Shown: positions 3,433 to 63,968 of the stretch, in pieces | Position numbering within the stretch: the first letter of the stretch is position 1 | Layout of the letters: each line of letters begins with the position of its first letter | Source: Lachnospiraceae bacterium | GTDB lineage: Bacteria; Bacillota; Clostridia; Lachnospirales; Lachnospiraceae | Direction of reading: 5' to 3' | Length of the DNA: 64,000 nt | Assembly: GCA_022799355.1 (NCBI GenBank) | Contig: JAAWOG010000001.1 | Location: forward strand, 1-64,000 | The notes under the pieces: model-generated | Databases searched by the model: none | What the model saw: only the letters and a program-made list of their open reading frames with translations | What the model was told of the DNA's origin: nothing | Program-made: the position numbers and the translations under genes

Positions 3433-4359
3433 TTATCCCCCATTCACCTCCATCAAATTCCTCGGATGCCTGTTCACCAGAATATCCTTCTGCTTGGCGC
3501 TCGAAACATGGGTATATATCTCCGTCGTACTGATAGAGCTGTGTCCCAGCATCCGCTGTATATACCTGATGTCAACATCCTGTTCCAATAAAAGAGTGGC
3601 AAAAGAATGCCGGAACATATGCGGCGTGATATGCTGATGTATACCGGCGATCTCCGTATACCGTTTTATCATAAAACGAACCGACTGGTCCGACAGTTTA
3701 TGCCGAAGCCTGTTTACAAAAAAATACCCACAGCTCTCAATATCCTCCCGGAAAGTCTCCCGATATAAATGCAGCGCAGAAAGAACCTCCCGATTGCCAA
3801 TCTGCAAAATTCTCTCTTTCGCCCCCTTCCCATAGATCAGGACCGTATGATTCTCAAGATCGATATCGGACGGTTTCAGCGAGCACAATTCCGATATCCG
3901 CATTCCGGTGGCAAACAATAATTCTATCACCGCAATATCCCTGATATGGCATCTGTATTGATATTCCGACTCGGCATATTCTTTTTGGGAATAGATCACA
4001 GACAGAAATGTCTGAATAGAGTGAAACGGAATTGTTTTGGGAAGAAGCCTTTCCTCCCGGAATCGGATATCCAATTTCAGAAAAGGATTCTCCTCCAACA
4101 GCTCCTTGTACTCCAGATGATGAAAAAATGCTTTTAAACTTGCGATTTTGCGCTTTACCGTCTTAGATTTGTACTGTCTGTGCAAATGGGTGATAAACAA
4201 ATCCACGGTATTTTTAGAAAAACAATCCGGCATATCCGCACTGAATATCTCATACTGTTTCAGGTCGCTCCGGTATGCTTTCAGCGTCTTGGAATCCAGA
4301 CGTTTCCGGTATTCACAGTATTCAATATACTTTGCAATATAATCATTCAGGGTGTTCAT
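3433..4359 (-). CDS. Tyrosine recombinase, XerC/XerD type
   Basis: 308 residues with an N-terminal SAM-like core-binding domain (about 1-95, four helices) and a C-terminal catalytic domain. The catalytic residues are visible: Arg in TGMRISEL, Lys in GKGAKER, His-x-x-Arg in HMFRHSFATLL, His in MLGHSSISTTE and the nucleophile Tyr in IYTHV. Length fits Xer recombinases rather than the longer phage integrases. No phage or element genes flank it and no attachment site was recognised, so it may be an accessory Xer, for example a phase-variation invertase. Its role is unclear. Confidence 0.85.
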   Translation of the reverse strand: MNTLNDYIAKYIEYCEYRKRLDSKTLKAYRSDLKQYEIFSADMPDCFSKNTVDLFITHLHRQYKSKTVKRKIASLKAFFHHLEYKELLEENPFLKLDIRFREERLLPKTIPFHSIQTFLSVIYSQKEYAESEYQYRCHIRDIAVIELLFATGMRISELCSLKPSDIDLENHTVLIYGKGAKERILQIGNREVLSALHLYRETFREDIESCGYFFVNRLRHKLSDQSVRFMIKRYTEIAGIHQHITPHMFRHSFATLLLEQDVDIRYIQRMLGHSSISTTEIYTHVSSAKQKDILVNRHPRNLMEVNGG

Positions 4360-53797: not shown

Positions 53798-54454
53798 CTA
53801 TTTGTCATTCAATAATTCCCTAAAATGTTGAGACAACTCTTTATCCTGTATCACCATACTTCTTTTAAATCCCGCAAAATTACTTTCTCTGCTCAACATC
53901 TCTTTAATCTTTTTCCAATATACCACCTTCAATTTGACATCACTTTCATTAAGATAGCTTTCTGTATATTCTATAAATTTTTTCAGTTCATTTGAAATCT
54001 TATTTTTCAAATTATCTGATTCAACTTTAGAAAGCGGAGTTCCAGCGCCGTTATACACTTTATCCAACAATTCTTTCGTCTTTTCATTTTCTGTACTGTT
54101 TACCCTATCAACAACCTCAACATAATAAGTTGGATATGTATTAAAACACATCATTATGTAAATTTCCGGATCTTCTTTCGTACAATCTATGATATGGTCA
54201 TATGAGCTTCCCTTTATCTTATTACAATGAAAACATGCATAAAACAAATTCTCCCACTTATATTTCAAATGCTCATAGTTTTTAACTGATCGCAAATGCT
54301 CTACGTTTATTGAAGTTGGATATTTTTCCTCACAGATATAACACTTATTATAGAAATCCTGTTGCATTACCGTTAAAATTTCTTTACTTCTATAGTCTTC
54401 TTCTCTCCGAATAATTATATTCGGCGGAAGTTTTGATTTACTTATTTTGATCAT
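53798..54454 (-). CDS. HNH endonuclease, PtuB-like (TIGR02646 type)
   Basis: 218 residues. HNH/zinc motif: CYICEEKYPTSINVEHLRSV, then KWENLFYACFHCNKIKG, with two Cys-x-x-Cys pairs and the catalytic His in VEHL. The tail is Lys-rich and helical. It overlaps the upstream ATPase gene by 17 bases, the ptuA-ptuB order of Septu phage-defence systems and of retron effector pairs. No reverse transcriptase is near, which favours Septu. Confidence 0.82.
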   Translation of the reverse strand: MIKISKSKLPPNIIIRREEDYRSKEILTVMQQDFYNKCYICEEKYPTSINVEHLRSVKNYEHLKYKWENLFYACFHCNKIKGSSYDHIIDCTKEDPEIYIMMCFNTYPTYYVEVVDRVNSTENEKTKELLDKVYNGAGTPLSKVESDNLKNKISNELKKFIEYTESYLNESDVKLKVVYWKKIKEMLSRESNFAGFKRSMVIQDKELSQHFRELLNDK

Positions 54455-55592
54455 ATTTTCTTTGTCTTTCTGTTTTCTGAAAATCCAATATAATATCCTG
54501 CGCCATAAAAATTGGAATAGATTGAAAATATTGAATTAAATCAACTAATTCGCTATCTTCTGAACCATTACGCAGATCACCTTTTTCTACCAACATAAGA
54601 TATTTTTCATACTTCTTATTCATTATATCTGAGAATGCTGTTGTATGAAACAAAGAATTTACTAAACATTCATACGAATATTCCGTTAAATCCTCGACTC
54701 GGATATTTCTTTCCAAATCATAAACTACTGCCGATTTTATCGAAGATACTACAAACGGCGAATGAGTTGCCACAATAAATTGGATATTAGGAAAGACTTT
54801 TGTCAAAAATGGAAGAATCCTTTTTTGCCACGCAATATGCAAATGCTGTTCTATTTCATCTATCAACACAATTCCCGGCAAGTCATATCTTAAATGTGCC
54901 TGATGCTCCATTCTGATTACAATCTCAGAAAAAATATTAAAAAGAGCCGCATAGCCGCTTGCCATTTCATCAAGCCCAAATTCCTCTCTATCTGGCAGCT
55001 TAATCTTAAAACACATATCCTTCAATGAAAATTTTAATAACAGCTGATTATTCTCAAATAATTCTCTCAATGCATTCTGTAGCCAGTCAAACCAACTCTC
55101 TGTATCCCGAATACCCTCTATTTCTCCATTTTCTTTTGCAAACAATTTTTCTACATACATATATACAAGGAGCTGCTCAAATGATACATTCATATTCTCA
55201 AAAATACTTTTTACTTTAGTTATATCAACCAGTTCAACTGTCTTTGTTTTATTCATTACAAGCCTTCTGTCTGCCGAGAAATTCACCAAAATAATTTGGC
55301 CTTCCTGATATAATTTATACATGTTCTTTCCATCAGTATCATCTGGCAGATTACTTTTCATTTCTATTCCCTTTAATGATGAGTTAAATACCAATTCATA
55401 CCAGTCGTTTCCCGCAAAGCTCTTTCCCAGAAAAATTGAACTGCCAATTGTTTTAAGAACACTTGTCTTTCCACAACCATTCGTTCCTGTAAGCAATAAA
55501 TGCTTCTTCTCATTTGGGGACAATTCGATTTTAATATTCTTTAAATGTCTAATCTGCTTTATAGTAATTTCAGTTAAATATACCTGTTCCAT
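54438..55592 (-). CDS. AAA/SMC-type ATPase, PtuA-like
   Basis: 384 residues. Walker A TGTNGCGKTSV (about 35-45), signature region FGLDEMASGYAALF, Walker B GIVLIDEIEQHLH and the switch VATHSPFVVSS. It is an OLD/RecF-like ATPase without a Toprim nuclease domain, so cutting is left to the HNH partner. The coiled part is short, as in PtuA. The pair is expected to limit phages by DNA cleavage. Confidence 0.82.
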   Translation of the reverse strand: MEQVYLTEITIKQIRHLKNIKIELSPNEKKHLLLTGTNGCGKTSVLKTIGSSIFLGKSFAGNDWYELVFNSSLKGIEMKSNLPDDTDGKNMYKLYQEGQIILVNFSADRRLVMNKTKTVELVDITKVKSIFENMNVSFEQLLVYMYVEKLFAKENGEIEGIRDTESWFDWLQNALRELFENNQLLLKFSLKDMCFKIKLPDREEFGLDEMASGYAALFNIFSEIVIRMEHQAHLRYDLPGIVLIDEIEQHLHIAWQKRILPFLTKVFPNIQFIVATHSPFVVSSIKSAVVYDLERNIRVEDLTEYSYECLVNSLFHTTAFSDIMNKKYEKYLMLVEKGDLRNGSEDSELVDLIQYFQSIPIFMAQDIILDFQKTERQRKYDQNK

Positions 55593-55625
55593 TTTATCCC
55601 CCCATGATAAAACCCTAATAATTTT

Positions 55626-55904
55626 CTACAATCCTTCGCTGCTTGCAAGCTTTTCCACCTCTTTGATTTCAAGTCCCGAATATTTTGCCACTTTTTCAAA
55701 CGACAATTCTCCGTCCTGAATCATTCGCAGTGCTATCTCCTTCTTGCCTTCATTGATTCCCTCATTCAAAATTCTTTTTGCCTCAATCTCAATCATTGGT
55801 CCTCTCATCATCCCACCTACACCTTTTTGTATGTTCTCATACTTCCGTGCAATCTCTTTGAGCACATCGCTGAAAAGTCCCCGTTTCTGTTCATTACTAT
55901 TGCA
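55626..55904 (-). pseudogene. C-terminal fragment of an Rpn-family nuclease gene
   Basis: The frame reads RGLFSDVLKEIARKYEN and then IEAKRILNEGINEGKKEIAL...LSFEKVAKYSGLEIKEVEKL, the usual tail of Rpn/PD-(D/E)XK transposase-like proteins. The catalytic N-terminal 200 residues are missing, an in-frame stop lies just before 55904, and no ribosome site is seen. It is a remnant that marks earlier rearrangement. Confidence 0.8.
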
Positions 55905-55955
55905 TCACTTCTGACTTATTTTAGATTAGTCCGTAAAAATGCCCTTTATAAAATA

Positions 55956-55989
55956 AAAGTCAGGATTTCTGTTGATTTGTCCTGACTTT
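55956..55989 (-). terminator. Terminator-like hairpin after protease tail copy B
   Basis: Perfect 10-bp stem AAAGTCAGGA/TCCTGACTTT. On the minus strand TTTTATTTTAT follows. It lies downstream of the remnant tail at 56066. The right half with its flank recurs at 63969-64000. Confidence 0.65.
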
Positions 55990-56065
55990 AGATTAACATA
56001 TTTTCATTATATTCACAAATAAAATTTTTATTTTTTATACTTTATACTTTTTCTCACTTCTATCC

Positions 56066-56149
56066 CTACACCCTCAACGCCTCAAACGTCTGCTGCAAAT
56101 TTAATTTACCAAAACCCTCTTGTGTCACGTTATTGTCACAAAAATTTTT
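56066..56149 (-). pseudogene. Remnant 3' tail of a subtilisin-like (S8) protease gene, copy B
   Basis: Minus-strand frame VTQEGFGKLNLQQTFEALRV and stop. It is related to copy A (52782-52865) with mainly third-position differences. No upstream part of the gene is left. Confidence 0.5.
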
Positions 56150-56335
56150 TTAATTTTTCCCGTAAATATCACGAAAACACACTTCGAACTATACTCCGTG
56201 TGTTAGATTATTGTCAAATTGAGACATCTGAAATTTATGTCTTTTATAATGAAAAAAGCAGCAAACCGAATAGTTGATTTACCGCTTTAAGCCTCTTCGC
56301 TTCTCTCGTAGTCTATATTTCACAAACTCATTTTA
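56066..56335. repeat. Module-boundary repeat, copy B
   Basis: Related along its length to copy A at 52782-53040. Core: AACACAC (56176) around CTATACTCC to GTGTGTT (56198), then AGATTATTGTCAAATTGAGA. It separates the Septu-like module from the Wadjet module. Confidence 0.85.
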
Positions 56336-56393
56336 ATAATTCCTCAAACTCATCCAAACTGTAAACTTTCGCTTTAGCCTCCTTAAAATCTTT
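56328..56393 (-). pseudogene. Remnant C-terminal tail of a small gene
   Basis: Twenty-one codons ending EAKAKVYSLDEFEELLK and stop, right where the intact 62-residue gene ends in copy A. A TAA lies just upstream. It looks like the last part of a small antitoxin-type gene. Between 56397 and 56492 nothing else is seen. Confidence 0.45.
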
Positions 56394-56492
56394 TTAATTA
56401 CATGTTACCGTACATTCCGCACTTACCATTCCGGCGCATTCATCCATCCTGTAGACAAAAGTGTAAAAAGCCTATATCTATTATAAAATTGT

Positions 56493-57704
56493 TTAAACGA
56501 TACACTCCTGCTCCAGCTTTATCCCGGCTGACAGCATATACGCAAGAACATCCGCATACGGAACAAACGGATTTTCTTTCAGCATCTTCTCTATTCTGAC
56601 ACGATCATTCTCTGTCAGCGCTTTGCCGTACTTTTCGTACTCCTTCAGCGTATCCAGATCCATTCTGTACAATTGAAACGGAATCCCCGTCTTCCGGCAC
56701 AGATCCTCGTAAATCAAAAATCCTCCCACATCAATGTCCCCGAAATGACAGTAGACGGCGTCCGGAAATGCGGCGTATATTTTTTGCAGCAAAGCGCGTC
56801 TGACGCTGTTATGATACCCTCCCAGATAAACCATAAGACTTTCCTCTTCTTCCCATCTGAAAAAAGCCGTAAGATTTTCAATCGTGATCACCCTGCGGAT
56901 CTGTGCCTCTTTCTCAAAACAGACTTTTCCGATATCCTCCCCTGAGATTCCCAGCCCCTGATGCAATTCTCCGATCGGAAATACACGCTCTCCTATCCTT
57001 AGCGAAACATTTCCCTTGAAATATACATAGTTTGGTGTATGGTAAATCCCATACTCCGCAAGGATCTCTCCCAGTTCCCTCTCCCGGTACTCCGCTCCGA
57101 AAGTGCGCATTGCCTTTGCAATCCTGCCGCTCAAAGATTCAAATAGCTTGGAGTTATGAAAATGCTCTATGGAAAACTCCCTGATATAGCAGATTTTGCT
57201 GTTCGTTTCTATCTCCCCGATCCCCGATAGAAAAATCTCCGTCTCTGCGGGATTTGACAGATCAATATATTCCTTTACCGATTGCCCATTTCCCAGACGC
57301 TCATCCAGATACCCGATCAGCGCCTGATAAATCGGCGTTTGAAAACGATCTCGCAATCCTGCTAACAGCTTTCTGTTCTCCCTGATCTTATCCGCCTTCG
57401 AAATCCTCTCCACATAGGCGTAAGCGCCCTCCAGATTCTCTGTGCATAAGATCACTTTTGAGATGATATGTCCTTCTTTCCCCTTTTTCCACCTGATATT
57501 GATCAGGTTTTGCCGTTCCAGTTCCTGCATGGCGGCGTGGATCTCCTCATAAGCGAGAGAACTCTCGTCAAAATACGCGGGGATAGTTCTCTTGTTAAAA
57601 GGAAAGGCAATATGCACCGCTACTTTATTTTTACCGCCAAACAAAGTACTTGTCTCATAGGAGTCAAGCAGCCTGTTTACAATCTTTTTGTCATACCGCG
57701 CCAT
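56493..57704 (-). CDS. jetD: Wadjet component JetD, Toprim-type nuclease
   Basis: 403 residues from MARYDKKIVNRLLDSYE (ATG 57704, GGAGAGG upstream, overlapping jetC by 14 bases). The N-terminal part (DUF3322-like) binds DNA. The C-terminal DUF2220/Toprim fold has the conserved Glu in TIENLTAFFRWEEEE and the Asp-x-Asp in CHFGDIDVGGFLIYEDL. JetD cuts closed circular DNA brought by the SMC-like JetABC motor, giving protection against plasmids. Confidence 0.9.
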   Translation of the reverse strand: MARYDKKIVNRLLDSYETSTLFGGKNKVAVHIAFPFNKRTIPAYFDESSLAYEEIHAAMQELERQNLINIRWKKGKEGHIISKVILCTENLEGAYAYVERISKADKIRENRKLLAGLRDRFQTPIYQALIGYLDERLGNGQSVKEYIDLSNPAETEIFLSGIGEIETNSKICYIREFSIEHFHNSKLFESLSGRIAKAMRTFGAEYRERELGEILAEYGIYHTPNYVYFKGNVSLRIGERVFPIGELHQGLGISGEDIGKVCFEKEAQIRRVITIENLTAFFRWEEEESLMVYLGGYHNSVRRALLQKIYAAFPDAVYCHFGDIDVGGFLIYEDLCRKTGIPFQLYRMDLDTLKEYEKYGKALTENDRVRIEKMLKENPFVPYADVLAYMLSAGIKLEQECIV

Positions 57705-60700
57705 TATGATACCTCTCCACGAAACTGACTTTCTCATCCGTCATGACAAGCAGCGTTTCTTCCACAGAGGGACTGATATACTGGATCTTATCCGGCGGCG
57801 CGGCGATGATGATCTGTAGCGGCAGTCTTCTTAAGAATTCCAGTACCCCTCCGATCCGCTCATCGTCCATATTATTGAAAGCCTCGTCAAACATGACCAG
57901 GCCGATGGCCTCGCCACCGATATTATTGCCGTAAAGCTGCACGAAAGATGCCGCCACAGTGACATAGAAAGGCGTCTGCGTTTCGCCGCCGCTCTTTTCC
58001 TCACATACTTTGGAATAGTAGGAATAACTGCCGTCACTGTGCACTATTTTAATATCATAATCCATGTACGTCCTGTAATCGGTAAACTCGTCAAGCGCCT
58101 GCGCGCTGTTCTCATTATCTAACGCCAGCTTTTCAAACAGTTCGTCGATGACTTCCTTATGGTTCTCATGGAACAATCCGCTGAAGATGGATTCTCCCTG
58201 TATGGCGTTAAAATCATCCATAATCATCTCATAATATTGTCTGTAGCGTTTGCTGGGCAGGTAGAGGAACTCGTATTTCTCGTTGCTGAAAATAATGTCT
58301 CTGAGCGCTTTATTCAATTCTTTAAATTCATTTTGCGCCTGCTTCATATTTTCCTGAAGTTTGGCTAAAAACTGCTCTCTGAACTCTTCCTCCGCCGCCT
58401 GCCTGGCCGATTGTACCTTTTCTTCATAGTCCAGAAGTTCCGATGTGCAAAGCCTCTCATAGACGTCCGCAAAGTCCGGATATCCTTCCATACTGGGGGC
58501 GGCGCCGAAATCATGTTCCGTTTTGTAGGAAACCATGGCATTTACCATATTGGTCCGAGCATGGTCCGTAGTAGTCGCATTGGCTTTTTTTCTGCGGGCA
58601 AAGTTATCGCGGAACTGATCAAAAGATTTATCTTCTGTCTGCTTTTCATAGTCCCTGTTCCATGCGGGCAGCATATCTCCGGCCGCCGCCCCCAGCCTGA
58701 CGACAGCCTCCTGTTTTAAGGCGCGCTCGGCCTGCAGTCTTTCCATCTCCTGTTTATAATCTTCTAATTTCTGCTCATATCGGCCCTTCTCCTGATTCCA
58801 TTTTCCCAACTGTAAATCCAGTTCGCTGATCAGCGTTTCCAATGTCTGGAGCTGAATCTGTTTCTGGATCATCGTCGCGTTTTTCTCAAGCGTAGCGATG
58901 TTCTTCTTGCACTTGTCTATGCCCGCCCTGATGTTTCTGATTTTGACCAGCACATCCAATCTGTACTGGATATCAATATCCGCGTCCACGCTCAAAGCGT
59001 CCGTCAGCTGCGCAAACGCTCTCAACTGCTCCTCCAGCCCGTTAATCTCCTCCGATATCTGTTCTCTCTCCTTCACCGCCTGTTCGAGCTGCACTCTCAC
59101 CGCGTTTCGCCCGATAAAGGGCGTCTCAAAGATCGCCGGTTTGATGGCGCTTGCCACATGATTCTGATACTTCATGCACTCTTTTGTGATGGAGACGGGA
59201 TAATTTTTCAGTTCGCTATAGTGATTACACATATAGACCTTTCCCAAAATCATATTGGCAAACTGACCGGCATATCTGTTTTTGGAGGAAACCGCCGCCG
59301 CAAGTGTCCCCGCCGGCGCCTCAGCGTACTTTTCCAGCTTTCTGGTATTGACCAATCCCACGCCGTATGCCTTTTTTCCTTCGCGCAGCCTGTCGTAAAC
59401 TCCCAATGCGATGTCAAAATTCTCCGGCTCCACCAGAATATAAAAACGCTGGGTATTCAAATAACCCTCTACCGCATTCCTCCACTGTTCATCCGCAATT
59501 TCCAGTAACTCGCACAAAATTCGCGGTTCCGGTTTCCGGCCGATCCGGGCAAATTCCTCCTCGATCGCCTGTCTGACTTTTACTACCTCCTCCGGATAAG
59601 TCAGTTTTTTCTGCTTCAACTGCTCAATCCTTTTATCCAGTTCAAGCCGCTTTGTCTTTCTGTCGTTCCACTGCACCTGCAGTTTCGCACTCTCTATCTG
59701 GTTTTTGTCATACATCTGCTTCTTACGGGCAACTATTTTCTGCGTGAGGAATTTAACCTCTGAAAGATCTTCCTGTGCCTCTAAATGATTCAGTATTTTC
59801 TCATACTCCCTGAAGCAGGGATCCACATCCTTTAAGGAAAGCAGCCTTGTCGCCTGCCCGCGGGAAATCTTCACGCTGGCAAGCAGTTCTTTCCTTTCTT
59901 CCGCCTGCTCCTCCAACGTCTCCTGCAGCTTCTGCAATTCCTTTTTCTGTCCGTCCAGCGCAAGAAAATCATCATCTTTTGCAAGTTCCGCCATCAGCGC
60001 ATCTCGGATCTGCTGTCTCTCATTCTTTTCCTCCTCCGTCTTTTTGATCTTCTTCTCCTGTTGTTCCAGACGGTATCGCTCCATCCGCATCTGACTTTTT
60101 GTCTCCGAAAACCGTTCTCCCAAAATGTCAGCCTCAGCCCGCTGCAGAAAGTAATCGTACATTCTGTCTTTTGCAAGGCCGTCCAGCACCTGCGCATGAT
60201 GCCCTTCAATGATCTCCAGCTTCGCAATGCGGCGCTTCACGCTGTCCAATGTTTTTTCCAACTCCTGATAGGTCCTGACGTTCTCCCGCAGAATATCGAT
60301 ATTGACCTCTTTCTCGTCCAACACATAGGAATACACAAAGTCTTTGATATCGTCGATCGGCCTGAAAGCCAACGCTTTGGGAATCAAGGTAAAAAACTTG
60401 TCTTCAATCCGACCGAAGCGCGTCTTTATCATCTTCTTCGCCTCTATCCCCGTCTTACACCACATTTTTATTTTTCCGCTGTTGGCGCCGCGAAATTTTG
60501 TGATGGATCTGGGAATTTTCCCCTCAAAAAACATGTCCTCCGTAAACCTGGTGTGATCCATCAAATAGCGGACCGTCGTCTCCTGCCCCTCGGAAGCGGA
60601 ATCGATCACCGCTCCCACCACAAAATACTGCTTTTTACTATCCTCATAAAATTCCAGCGCAACATGTGCGCTGATAGCACCCGTCCGCTCATAAGGCCTG

Positions 60701-60933
60701 TTCTCTTTTCCCGTCTTACAGCGTATATAGCCCGTCAGCTTCCTCTTTCCGTTTTCATGGGCAGCCTTGTTGAAATAATTTGCGGTGCAGGTGACCACAA
60801 ACTGGATCGCATCCAAAAGGGTAGACTTTCCGGCCCCGTTTTCCCCGGAAAGAAGCGTAGACGCTCCGAACTCTATGGTGGTATTGATGAAACGGTGCCA
60901 GTTAATCAGCTTCACTCTCGTCAGCGTCTTCAT
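57691..60933 (-). CDS. jetC: Wadjet component JetC, SMC/MukB-like ATPase
   Basis: 1080 residues. N-terminal Walker A LSGENGAGKSTLLDAIQF (about 29-46), two long coiled-coil arms (about 250-450 and 620-900) around a hinge-like centre (470-600), and C-terminal signature EEKSGGETQTPFYVTVAASF with Walker B GLVMFDEAFNNMDDERI. It is the DNA-extruding motor of the complex. Overlaps with jetB (32 bases) and jetD show a single operon. Confidence 0.93.
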   Translation of the reverse strand: MKTLTRVKLINWHRFINTTIEFGASTLLSGENGAGKSTLLDAIQFVVTCTANYFNKAAHENGKRKLTGYIRCKTGKENRPYERTGAISAHVALEFYEDSKKQYFVVGAVIDSASEGQETTVRYLMDHTRFTEDMFFEGKIPRSITKFRGANSGKIKMWCKTGIEAKKMIKTRFGRIEDKFFTLIPKALAFRPIDDIKDFVYSYVLDEKEVNIDILRENVRTYQELEKTLDSVKRRIAKLEIIEGHHAQVLDGLAKDRMYDYFLQRAEADILGERFSETKSQMRMERYRLEQQEKKIKKTEEEKNERQQIRDALMAELAKDDDFLALDGQKKELQKLQETLEEQAEERKELLASVKISRGQATRLLSLKDVDPCFREYEKILNHLEAQEDLSEVKFLTQKIVARKKQMYDKNQIESAKLQVQWNDRKTKRLELDKRIEQLKQKKLTYPEEVVKVRQAIEEEFARIGRKPEPRILCELLEIADEQWRNAVEGYLNTQRFYILVEPENFDIALGVYDRLREGKKAYGVGLVNTRKLEKYAEAPAGTLAAAVSSKNRYAGQFANMILGKVYMCNHYSELKNYPVSITKECMKYQNHVASAIKPAIFETPFIGRNAVRVQLEQAVKEREQISEEINGLEEQLRAFAQLTDALSVDADIDIQYRLDVLVKIRNIRAGIDKCKKNIATLEKNATMIQKQIQLQTLETLISELDLQLGKWNQEKGRYEQKLEDYKQEMERLQAERALKQEAVVRLGAAAGDMLPAWNRDYEKQTEDKSFDQFRDNFARRKKANATTTDHARTNMVNAMVSYKTEHDFGAAPSMEGYPDFADVYERLCTSELLDYEEKVQSARQAAEEEFREQFLAKLQENMKQAQNEFKELNKALRDIIFSNEKYEFLYLPSKRYRQYYEMIMDDFNAIQGESIFSGLFHENHKEVIDELFEKLALDNENSAQALDEFTDYRTYMDYDIKIVHSDGSYSYYSKVCEEKSGGETQTPFYVTVAASFVQLYGNNIGGEAIGLVMFDEAFNNMDDERIGGVLEFLRRLPLQIIIAAPPDKIQYISPSVEETLLVMTDEKVSFVERYHNGAV

Positions 60934-61516
60934 CCGTCTTTGCTCCTTTTCTGTAGATCTCTAATTTTTCATAAGCCTGTTTGATATCTTCCACCCGCAC
61001 GGCCATCAGGATGGAATCAAAAATCAATATTCTGGCGTCCTCATTCTCCAGATTCCTGTCCAGTATTTCGATGAGCTGAAACCGTCTGAACAGGCTCAAG
61101 GCATTTCTCATCGTCGTCTTATCGATCAGCTTGTCCCGGATCTTCAGGCTTATAAATTTTTCATGGATATCCCCCAGATTAATAATCACCTCATCGGCTG
61201 CGGACAGTTCCCGCTTCTTCTCATCAAATAACACACGCAGGATCAGCAGAATAACAGACTCGTACAGCTTCAGATTCAGTCTGTTAAAATTCTGCGGATT
61301 TGTCAGCTGAACCACGCCGTATTCCTCGTTGATCTCCAGCCGGTATCCCAGCACAGACAGATATTCCGCCATTTCCGCTTTATGTTTGAGAACAAAATAA
61401 TAGTCGGATCTGGCCGTAATGTTCCCTTTGCACAAAAAACAGGTGCCGAGCAGCTTATTACATACTCTCACAAAATTATCCTTATCCCTCTGCAACATCC
61501 CTTCCAATAAATCCAT
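60902..61516 (-). CDS. jetB: Wadjet component JetB (MukE-like)
   Basis: 204 residues, DUF4194-like winged-helix protein: RDKDNFVRVCNKLLGTCF at the start, VIINLGDIHEKFISLKIRDKLIDKTTMRNALSLFRRFQLIEIL in the core, and an acidic tail (TDEDADESEAD). It bridges the kleisin JetA and the JetC heads. It lies 25 bases after jetA. Confidence 0.88.
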   Translation of the reverse strand: MDLLEGMLQRDKDNFVRVCNKLLGTCFLCKGNITARSDYYFVLKHKAEMAEYLSVLGYRLEINEEYGVVQLTNPQNFNRLNLKLYESVILLILRVLFDEKKRELSAADEVIINLGDIHEKFISLKIRDKLIDKTTMRNALSLFRRFQLIEILDRNLENEDARILIFDSILMAVRVEDIKQAYEKLEIYRKGAKTDEDADESEAD

Positions 61517-61541
61517 ACGAAGTACCTTTCCCCTTCCCCTG

Positions 61542-62921
61542 TTATCCTTTCAGGCGGACCACAAAGTCTTTAAACCGATAACCGTTTATCTCTTTATCGC
61601 TCTTTAATTCAATCGTATAGTCCATGTTTTTCCGCTGGCCGTACAGTCTGATATAAATAATCTTTACAAAATCTTCCGTATCTCTCAGCGGAAACTGCGA
61701 CGCAGAAAGTTCCCTCTTCTCTCCCAGCTGCTCTCTGACATAGGCGTTGATCTTTGCAACACTCAACACTTTCTGCATTTTCTCCGCCATTCTGCACAGT
61801 TTCATCTGCCGCATTACAAGATCCGGCTCCGCATCCGTGACCTCTCCCGGGTTAAACTCTTTTCTCCCCTCCACCGGTGCATAAAAAGACCTCTCATCCA
61901 GAAAACCGACGCTGTAAATACGGATCAGTTCCTCCAGAAAATCTATCCGGTAGACGCCGCCGGGATTCATCTGCTCCTCAGTGATTTTTTCATTGATCCC
62001 GATCAGGATCTCTTTGATCTGCCCCCTGACATCCTCGCTTCCCGTCAGCATAAAACGCGCGCGATTCACCGCCGATCGCTGGTACTGGGTATTTTTTTGA
62101 TTGATCTCTCTCAGAATGTCATCCATATTCTGAAAGGCGTCTATGATACTGTGAAGATAATGATAGACCAGTTCTTCTGCGGCTTCCTTTGAAATTTCCT
62201 TGATGCCGGCAATCTCCGCCGCCGTTTTATCCACATAAGTTTTACTTCGGCTTTTGTTTTCCAACCGCTCTATGATCTCCGGCCTGAATTTTGATACGTT
62301 ATCGGAAGTTAAAAGTCTGTGATATGCTCTGTCCACGATATTCGTGATATAGTCGTTGAACAGGGCGTCCATAATCTGAGCCACCGTTTTGTGCCTTGTC
62401 AGGTCATCGATATAATGCTTGATTCCGGAATTCAAGTTCTTTAATCCCGTAATCAGCAGATCCGTATTTTCGAGAATCTGCATAAGCACTACGCCGGGAT
62501 GGTCCGTGCTGCTGCGCACCAGACTGTAAATCGTATAAATATATCCCTGATATTCGATCTGCTTTCCTTCTGCGATCTCCAGAAGCGTCCGGATAATTTT
62601 AACCGCATACTCTTTAAAATTGACTCTCTGCACATAGCTTTTATCTGTTTCAATCTCTATCCAGCCATAATGCTCCAACCGCCTGAGCATAAAATTCGCC
62701 TTGCCCCGGCTGTCCGTCCCCTCCAGTTCCTCCTCCGCAAGATCCGCCGCATTGGCCTGTTCAAAATAATACTGCAGCTCATCCGCCAGCACATCCCGTT
62801 CCACGCCAAAGGAAAGCTGGTTGTTCATAATGGAAAACAGCCTGCAGATACATTCCCAATATACCCGTTTATTTGGAGATGCCAATGGCACAAAAAAACT
62901 GTCTGATATGATATCGAACAT
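61542..62921 (-). CDS. jetA: Wadjet component JetA (kleisin, MukF-like)
   Basis: 459 residues from MFDIISDSFFVPLASPNK; GGAAAGG lies 6 bases before this ATG, and the TTG further up is part of that site. The kleisin-type N-terminal winged helix is followed by helices, and the sequence is of the DUF5716 type seen in clostridial Wadjet systems rather than the DUF3375 type. First gene of the operon jetA-jetB-jetC-jetD. Confidence 0.88.
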   Translation of the reverse strand: MFDIISDSFFVPLASPNKRVYWECICRLFSIMNNQLSFGVERDVLADELQYYFEQANAADLAEEELEGTDSRGKANFMLRRLEHYGWIEIETDKSYVQRVNFKEYAVKIIRTLLEIAEGKQIEYQGYIYTIYSLVRSSTDHPGVVLMQILENTDLLITGLKNLNSGIKHYIDDLTRHKTVAQIMDALFNDYITNIVDRAYHRLLTSDNVSKFRPEIIERLENKSRSKTYVDKTAAEIAGIKEISKEAAEELVYHYLHSIIDAFQNMDDILREINQKNTQYQRSAVNRARFMLTGSEDVRGQIKEILIGINEKITEEQMNPGGVYRIDFLEELIRIYSVGFLDERSFYAPVEGRKEFNPGEVTDAEPDLVMRQMKLCRMAEKMQKVLSVAKINAYVREQLGEKRELSASQFPLRDTEDFVKIIYIRLYGQRKNMDYTIELKSDKEINGYRFKDFVVRLKG

Positions 62922-62984
62922 GGAAAGCCTTTCCAAAATATCGCTTTTTTCTTTCCATTACAACATTTATTCGGATATATGTCA

Positions 62985-63059: not shown

Positions 63060-63896
63060 TCACTCAATCAACTTTATTTGCTCCGCCGTATTAAGAATAT
63101 TCAACTGATACTCTGCAATTTCTTCTAAAATATGGAATCTTTCTACCTTATTTCTGCCTTCACGGATCATTTGTGCATTATGTGTTTCTAAATTAGACAA
63201 AACTGTAAGTTCATTTATTGAAGCAAAATCTCTTACATTGTTCTTTTTTGCCAATTCGGGATTTTTATCCCGCCATGCTTTGGCCGTAAATCCAAATAAT
63301 GCAACGTTCAAAATATCCGCTTCTTCTGCGTATGCTAACCACTTCAGATTCTCTTTATAATTTCCTGCCGGAATTAGGTAATTTTTAACTGCATCTGTTT
63401 GAATCAAATAATTATTTTTGGACAAAAATCTTTTTGCATCCCACTCAATTTTCTCTGCATCATTCTCCGCTTCTTTCAGTCTCTGAAATTCTTTGATTAA
63501 GTATAACTTAAAAATGGGACTAATCGCTGAAGCAAATTCAAATGCAATATCTTTATGCGCATACGTTCCGCCAAATTTTCCACGTTTCACAAATAAGCCT
63601 ATCGCTTCGGTCTTTTCAATCCATTCTGAAACGCTCAACACAAATGTATGTAAACCTGCTTCGCTTTTAAAGTGGTCGAATTCGACCACTTTAAAAGCGG
63701 GATTATAAATCTGTTCCCATGCACCCAAAAATTCCAAAGTCGTTCTGTTTCTCATCCAATTTTTTACAACATCTGCTCCTCTAGACTCGCCGACTTTGGC
63801 TTTTGCAATATCAGTAATGCAAATATAATCGTCAAAATTTTCCTCTGAAACAGTAATATTGATATTTTGTACCACGATTACTTTATTTTTCCCCAT
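63060..63896 (-). CDS. KilA-N domain protein
   Basis: 278 residues from MGKNKVIVVQNINITV (ATG 63896, GAGAGG upstream). The KilA-N DNA-binding domain covers about 10-105, with YICITDIAKAK, VVKNWMRNRTTLEFLGAWE and the block FKVVEFDHFKSEAG. Then comes WIEKTEAIGL...GTYAHKDIAFEFASAISPIFKLYLIKEFQRL. The C-terminal part is helical (NVRDFASINELTVLSNLE). Such proteins occur in phages and in defence islands, and their role is not established. The coding sequence carries a 38-bp palindrome. Confidence 0.88.
   Translation of the reverse strand: MGKNKVIVVQNINITVSEENFDDYICITDIAKAKVGESRGADVVKNWMRNRTTLEFLGAWEQIYNPAFKVVEFDHFKSEAGLHTFVLSVSEWIEKTEAIGLFVKRGKFGGTYAHKDIAFEFASAISPIFKLYLIKEFQRLKEAENDAEKIEWDAKRFLSKNNYLIQTDAVKNYLIPAGNYKENLKWLAYAEEADILNVALFGFTAKAWRDKNPELAKKNNVRDFASINELTVLSNLETHNAQMIREGRNKVERFHILEEIAEYQLNILNTAEQIKLIE
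63662..63699. repeat. Perfect 38-bp palindrome inside the KilA-N gene
   Basis: CGCTTTTAAAGTGGTCGAA (63662-63680) is followed at once by its exact reverse complement (63681-63699). It codes the conserved block around FKVVEFDHFK. Confidence 0.95.
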
Positions 63897-63968
63897 CCTT
63901 TTCCTCTCGTACAGCACTGATTAAGATTTTATTTCTTAACCTCCCTAAAGTACCTCTTTTGAATTTTT

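Follow-up and report, generated by a model that had tools for sequence, protein, structure and literature searches.

A palindrome inside a KilA-N gene of a Lachnospiraceae bacterium: a likely binding site of the encoded protein and a possible self-recognition mark carried by phages

Why should a protein-coding sequence contain a long, perfect palindrome, and what would read it? The question is raised by the first 64,000 nucleotides of contig JAAWOG010000001.1 (Lachnospiraceae bacterium, assembly GCA_022799355.1), the whole of which is called the window here. A sequence-only reading had noted a perfect 38 base pair (bp) palindrome inside a KilA-N gene near its end, and had offered as explanations a binding site of the KilA-N protein itself, a cruciform target or a recombination site. 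The best reading of the data given below is that the palindrome would be a self-recognition mark, resembling the aba element of BstA, which phages have copied as a counter-defence. A probability of about 0.55 is placed on cognate binding combined with a role in self-immunity. The features concerned are as follows.

63662 to 63699, no strand: perfect 38-bp palindrome, with its dyad between 63680 and 63681
63666 to 63695, no strand: conserved 30-bp core TTTAAA GTGGTC GAATTC GACCAC TTTAAA, half-site type GTGGTC, codons 75–84, defined by pairing in homologues
63060 to 63917, minus strand: KilA-N gene, 285 amino acids from a GTG start, PADLOC family PDC-S22, identified with Pfam and PADLOC profiles

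The palindrome, CGCTTTTAAAGTGGTCGAATTCGACCACTTTAAAAGCG, is identical to its own reverse complement by direct sequence check and spans codons 74–85 of the gene. Palindromes with 19-bp arms and no spacer are expected about 2e-7 times per 64 kilobases, and the runner-up dyad in the whole window (spacer up to 8 bp) has arms of 13 bp. Given the peptide and the gene's own codon usage, the probability of choosing the ten core codons jointly is about 8e-6. The palindrome is real and lies far beyond chance. No second copy was found in the same genome with up to three mismatches allowed, and the E. coli genomes searched yielded no match. The core is unique within the gene, where the best other palindromic block had 53% pairing vs 92%, and no further half-sites above control were present elsewhere in the gene or in the 400-bp flanks up- and downstream.

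Conservation was assessed in 109 homologues (<90% identity) from several phyla. The gene is mobile and its distribution patchy: homologues occur in 55 of the 392 genomes from the order and in 26 of a sample of 398 from across the phylum, and plasmids, phages and satellite phages carry them too. A mean of 13.7 of the 15 core pairs were Watson-Crick, whereas the same peptides would lead one to expect 8.9. The outermost two pairs of the 36-nucleotide codon window were paired at random (30/109 and 11/109), and the third was partly paired. Because only the inner 30 bp are kept across homologues, the outer 4+4 bp of the 38-bp palindrome are regarded as incidental. What is kept among relatives is the symmetry and not a fixed sequence. 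Half-sites of the types GTGGTC, CTGGTC, CCCGTC, CCTATC, GGTGTC, TATGGC, TATACC, TTGGTG and others were found, 19 of them perfectly mirrored, and a change in one arm was usually mirrored in the other even at the cost of an amino acid change. On the protein tree, the 15 core pairs underwent 114 compensatory double changes, each replacing one Watson-Crick pair with a different one. Within positions 61–100, few residues vary more than 77 and 82, which the variable arms encode. The palindrome is not general to KilA-N genes, since the unrelated paralogues L136, L137 and L150:485-892 have no palindrome at this place.

Synonymous sites were examined at third positions with a Watson-Crick option, the expectation being drawn from each gene's codon usage (1050 cells). 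Watson-Crick pairs were formed in 1003 cells vs 502 expected, in agreement with the earlier suggestion that codon choice preserves the symmetry. Homologues with the same peptide kept the palindrome with a few mismatches at most, and none with the same peptide and no palindrome was seen. The remaining cells comprised 26 G-T (298 expected), 11 A-C (112 expected) and 10 other mismatches (138 expected). A folded RNA would tolerate G-U pairs; G-T was as depleted as the other mismatches, and the constraint therefore acts on duplex DNA and not on RNA. A palindrome of this kind would also fold in the messenger, where a hairpin might govern translation or decay. The avoidance of G-U as strongly as of A-C, the covariation with a DNA-recognition helix described below, and the presence of stand-alone copies in non-coding DNA leave that explanation with a very small probability.

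The protein that would read the site belongs to the Pfam family PF04383 (75 bits vs a cut-off of 23.8) and to PDC-S22 (E=4e-118), the latter profile being matched also by 24 of 24 diverse homologues. Its parts of interest are listed here.

63471 to 63875, minus strand: KilA-N domain (winged helix-turn-helix), from Pfam PF04383 and a fold match to the Mbp1 and PCG2 DNA-binding domains
63750 to 63779, minus strand: putative recognition helix, residues 47–56, of which K52, N53 and R56 covary with the half-site, from an AlphaFold model and covariation

Helix 47–56 is predicted by the AlphaFold model, the N-terminal domain of which matches Mbp1 and PCG2; helix B of PCG2 inserts into the major groove (PMC4333399).

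For the covariation analysis a tree was built without the palindrome and without residues 44–58, and each protein column was scored against each half-site base pair. The phylogenetic statistics were parsimony counts on a FastTree tree with simple nulls, and no single value is given as much weight as their consistency with the close-pair comparison, with the relocated sites and with the copies in phages. Residues 52, 53 and 56 were the top columns outside the palindrome for bp12 (z=7.4), bp13 (z=6.4) and bp14 (z=7.9), respectively, so that the order along the helix matches the order along the site. At bp13, N53 occurred with T:A in 96 of 103 cases, D53 with G:C in 7 of 7 and K53 with C:G in 5 of 7 (Fisher tests, phylogeny not corrected for). 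At bp12, a G was usually accompanied by K or R, an A by Q and a C by E, and at bp14, C was found with R; these are the usual preferences of side chains for bases. Among close pairs (70–92% identical), residue 52 differed in 98% where bp12 differed and in 8% where bp12 was the same. Residues 51, 53 and 58 showed almost no effect in this test and residue 50 little. Linkage or recombination as a source of the covariation was rejected by the close-pair test. Among relatives with <60% identity, residues 49, 52, 53 and 56 predicted bp10 to bp13 better than the best of 40 random column sets; prediction of bp9 and bp14 was not above the random sets, bp14 hardly varying.

The contact pairs lie 3.5–6.5 bp from the dyad, which would put about 10 bp between the two reading helices, the spacing seen in helix-turn-helix homodimers. 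The palindrome is very likely the cognate binding site of the gene's own KilA-N protein, because the half-site covaries with the helix, the spacing is that of a homodimer, and the helix predicts the leader sites described next. The proposal that the site is bound by the KilA-N protein itself is thus strongly supported. Nothing pointed to a recombination site, and the data can be explained without a cruciform, although one is conceivable.

Two homologues have lost the palindrome from the gene and carry sites in the leader instead. In L337 (Latilactobacillus curvatus), TAAACCCGTCGA-AA-TCGACGGGTTTA lies directly before the ribosome-binding site, and the helix is closest to that of a CCCGTC-type gene. 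In L407, two CTGGTC palindromes are present in the 5' leader, and the six helices nearest to that of L407 are all of the CTGGTC type. The leader sites are of the type predicted by their helices.

Such sites bring forward the main rival, an autoregulatory operator, in which the protein would repress its own transcription by binding the site within its gene or leader, and the phage copies would serve as decoys or as control sites of phage genes. The evidence for binding applies equally to an operator, and the sites of L337 and L407 directly precede the ribosome-binding site. In nearly all homologues, however, the site lies about 220–250 bp into the coding sequence, outside the promoter, and no second site is found within 400 bp on either side. 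Stand-alone phage sites often follow a stop codon within gene blocks, and a plain operator would not explain their retention by phages that lack the gene. Autoregulation is considered less likely than self-recognition.

The symmetry could also be a relic without function, kept by mutation templated from one arm of an old inverted repeat on the other. Quasi-palindrome correction is a known mutation process. It does not predict covariation with residues 49–56, relocation to leaders or copies in phages without the gene. Of the fragmentary gene copies, two have decayed palindromes, which argues against such a process, though many fragments keep the palindrome; in L355, L356 and L371 the KilA-N genes are decayed and the palindrome is still intact. 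A relic of this sort is given hardly any credence.

Viral contigs were scanned for sites of the GTGGTC and CTGGTC types, the AAA/TTT flanks not being part of the search pattern. Palindromic sites outside genes of the family numbered 24 (in viral contigs, in one bacterial genome and, for two, in the L407 leader), and 20 of the 24 carried the AAA/TTT flanks vs 0.02 expected. The pattern also permitted a non-palindromic combination, of which there were two instances, in two related sequences. Two scrambled palindromes that retained the flanks and centre matched no phage, and the real palindromes matched 29 and 93 records. Sites were present in the sequenced phages Javan117, Javan527, Javan53, Javan637, LR1, Pel11 and FCL-2, the hosts being Streptococcus, Lactobacillus, Staphylococcus and Flavobacterium. 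Lactobacillus phage LR1 contains a perfect 30-bp site, TTTAAACCGGTCGAATTCGACCGGTTTAAA, of a type not seen in any gene. No family gene was found anywhere in the record for 7 of 7 annotated phages or for 20 of 21 viral contigs with sites; the remaining contig had one 16-bit family match, which looks like chance. Most stand-alone sites lie in non-coding gaps between genes, in phages often after a stop codon inside gene blocks, and adjoin unrelated types of gene (capsid, terminase, endolysin, helicase, integrase and endonuclease).

Several further sites were recorded. In phage contig L386 (7468-7512), stand-alone GTGGTC and TATGGC palindromes lie 27 bp apart, and in L367 a second, imperfect palindrome lies next to a CTGGTC site. 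In L360, a genome of the window's own family, a stand-alone GTGGTC site (1501-1518) directly follows the stop codon of an ORF6N-domain-like gene. In the viral contig L243, a TTGGTG-type palindrome (3624-3645) lies inside a larger inverted repeat, and the contig's own KilA-N gene is of another type. At L415:1201-1227 and in 78 Flavobacterium records, from F. columnare phages such as FCL-2, there are matches close to the GTGGTC type; FCL-2, the only one of these that was read, has AAAATT as its spacer.

The phage sites might conversely be targets at which the protein acts, the in-gene copy being a control or titration site. Sharing of the CTGGTC type between satellite phages and Streptococcus suis phages is in keeping with this. 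A harmful site should vanish fast, yet perfect dyads with conserved flanks persist in unrelated phages, in gaps that are cheap to mutate, and the idea is considered improbable. A replication or maintenance site, bound by the protein as initiator or partition factor, has a precedent in lambda, where the origin lies inside gene O, consists of four 19-bp iterons and is bound by dimeric O (PMC4488673, PMC3985674). The likeness is that of a DNA-binding protein with a site inside its own coding sequence. The difference is that no evidence for a replication role was found here: there is a single dyad, without iterons in the gene and its 400-bp flanks and without the iteron and AT-rich opening arrangement. 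Moreover, the gene is patchy, single on chromosomes and beside defence genes, no conserved replication partners were present in the contexts seen, and the phages with stand-alone sites have replication genes of their own. Only a slim chance is left to this alternative.

The closest known system is BstA of prophage BTP1, a KilA-N-like abortive-infection protein; the aba element in its own locus gives the carrier DNA-based self-immunity, and BstA variants are specific to their own aba element (PMC8585504). Both cases combine a KilA-N-like protein with a short DNA element in its own locus that is cognate to its own variant, here as seen through covariation. The present element differs in lying in codons 75–84, in being found in several phyla, in covarying with a helix and in occurring alone in phages. 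Mbp1 and PCG2 share the winged-helix fold and bind ACGCGT-type promoter sites (PMC4333399); they are not known to read a site within their own genes. In the open-licence papers searched, nothing was found that describes KilA-N proteins with palindromes or intragenic sites as such a system.

In the self-recognition model, two winged-helix copies would most likely occupy the two half-sites, one helical turn apart, with residues 49, 52, 53 and 56 of helix 47–56 reading the base pairs that lie some 3.5 to 6.5 bp away from the dyad. Since reader and site are in one gene, they would be inherited together and change together, giving many types of specificity. The protein may act against incoming replicating DNA, sparing DNA that has the cognate site, and phages without the gene may retain the common site types, in stand-alone form, for counter-defence. 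An anti-phage action that is switched off by the site is suggested by the assignment to PDC-S22, the location in a defence island, the copies in phages and the precedent of BstA and aba. The palindrome thus looks like a 'self' password copied by phages. Even odds are given to the wider picture of multi-phylum defence proteins with an in-gene password, in which password and reading helix would diversify jointly, yielding dozens of specificities, and phages lacking the gene would carry stolen passwords as a DNA-only counter-defence, sometimes of two types (L386).

Several points weigh against self-recognition. PDC-S22 is a candidate defence family only, and a single mention of it was found in the literature. 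Membership of the BstA family is not indicated, no sequence similarity being detectable (hhalign probability 0.2% against BTP1 BstA, single sequence), and aba, which spans 63 bp across the start codon and contains direct repeats of CCCGCC, is not a palindrome (PMC8585504), unlike the element here. The leader position in L337 and L407 fits an autoregulatory operator as well. Owing to common flanks, the independent stand-alone cases number about 17; several of the viral contigs are fragments, for which absence of the gene holds for the record and not for the whole phage; and the sites of Javan527 and Javan53 are degraded.

If self-recognition is true, a large protein family, so far uncharacterised, would gain a code that relates amino acids to the bases they recognise. 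It would also offer a case in which DNA symmetry drives amino acid variation inside a coding sequence, and an anti-defence element of phages that consists of DNA only. The question posed by BstA/aba, by what means a KilA-N protein is silenced by a short DNA element, would become directly testable, since site and reader are both predicted here.

The remaining features of the gene and its surroundings are these.

63063 to 63449, minus strand: C-terminal helical domain, residues 157–285, the whole model resembling DdrC, from the structure model and fold matches
56493 to 62936, minus strand: complete Wadjet operon JetA-JetB-JetC-JetD, context outside the site, from neighbouring genes

A search of solved structures by sequence gave no convincing match to the KilA-N protein. 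The closest full-length solved fold is DdrC of Deinococcus radiodurans (PDB 7udi, 7qvb), a dimeric DNA-binding protein, with a VIA Z of 10.8 over 194 residues but a root-mean-square deviation of 13.9 and 12–16% identity; the shared fold says nothing certain on function. Homologues suggest the ATG at 63894-63896 as the start instead of the GTG. Septu genes PtuA (54438-55592) and PtuB (53798-54454) form, together with the Wadjet operon, a defence island beside the KilA-N gene, at 53798-62936 of the window. Elsewhere in the same genome, G000:C132:50719-50793 encodes a fragment of 25 residues, probably the remnant of a second gene copy, which shares 88% identity with the beginning of the KilA-N protein.
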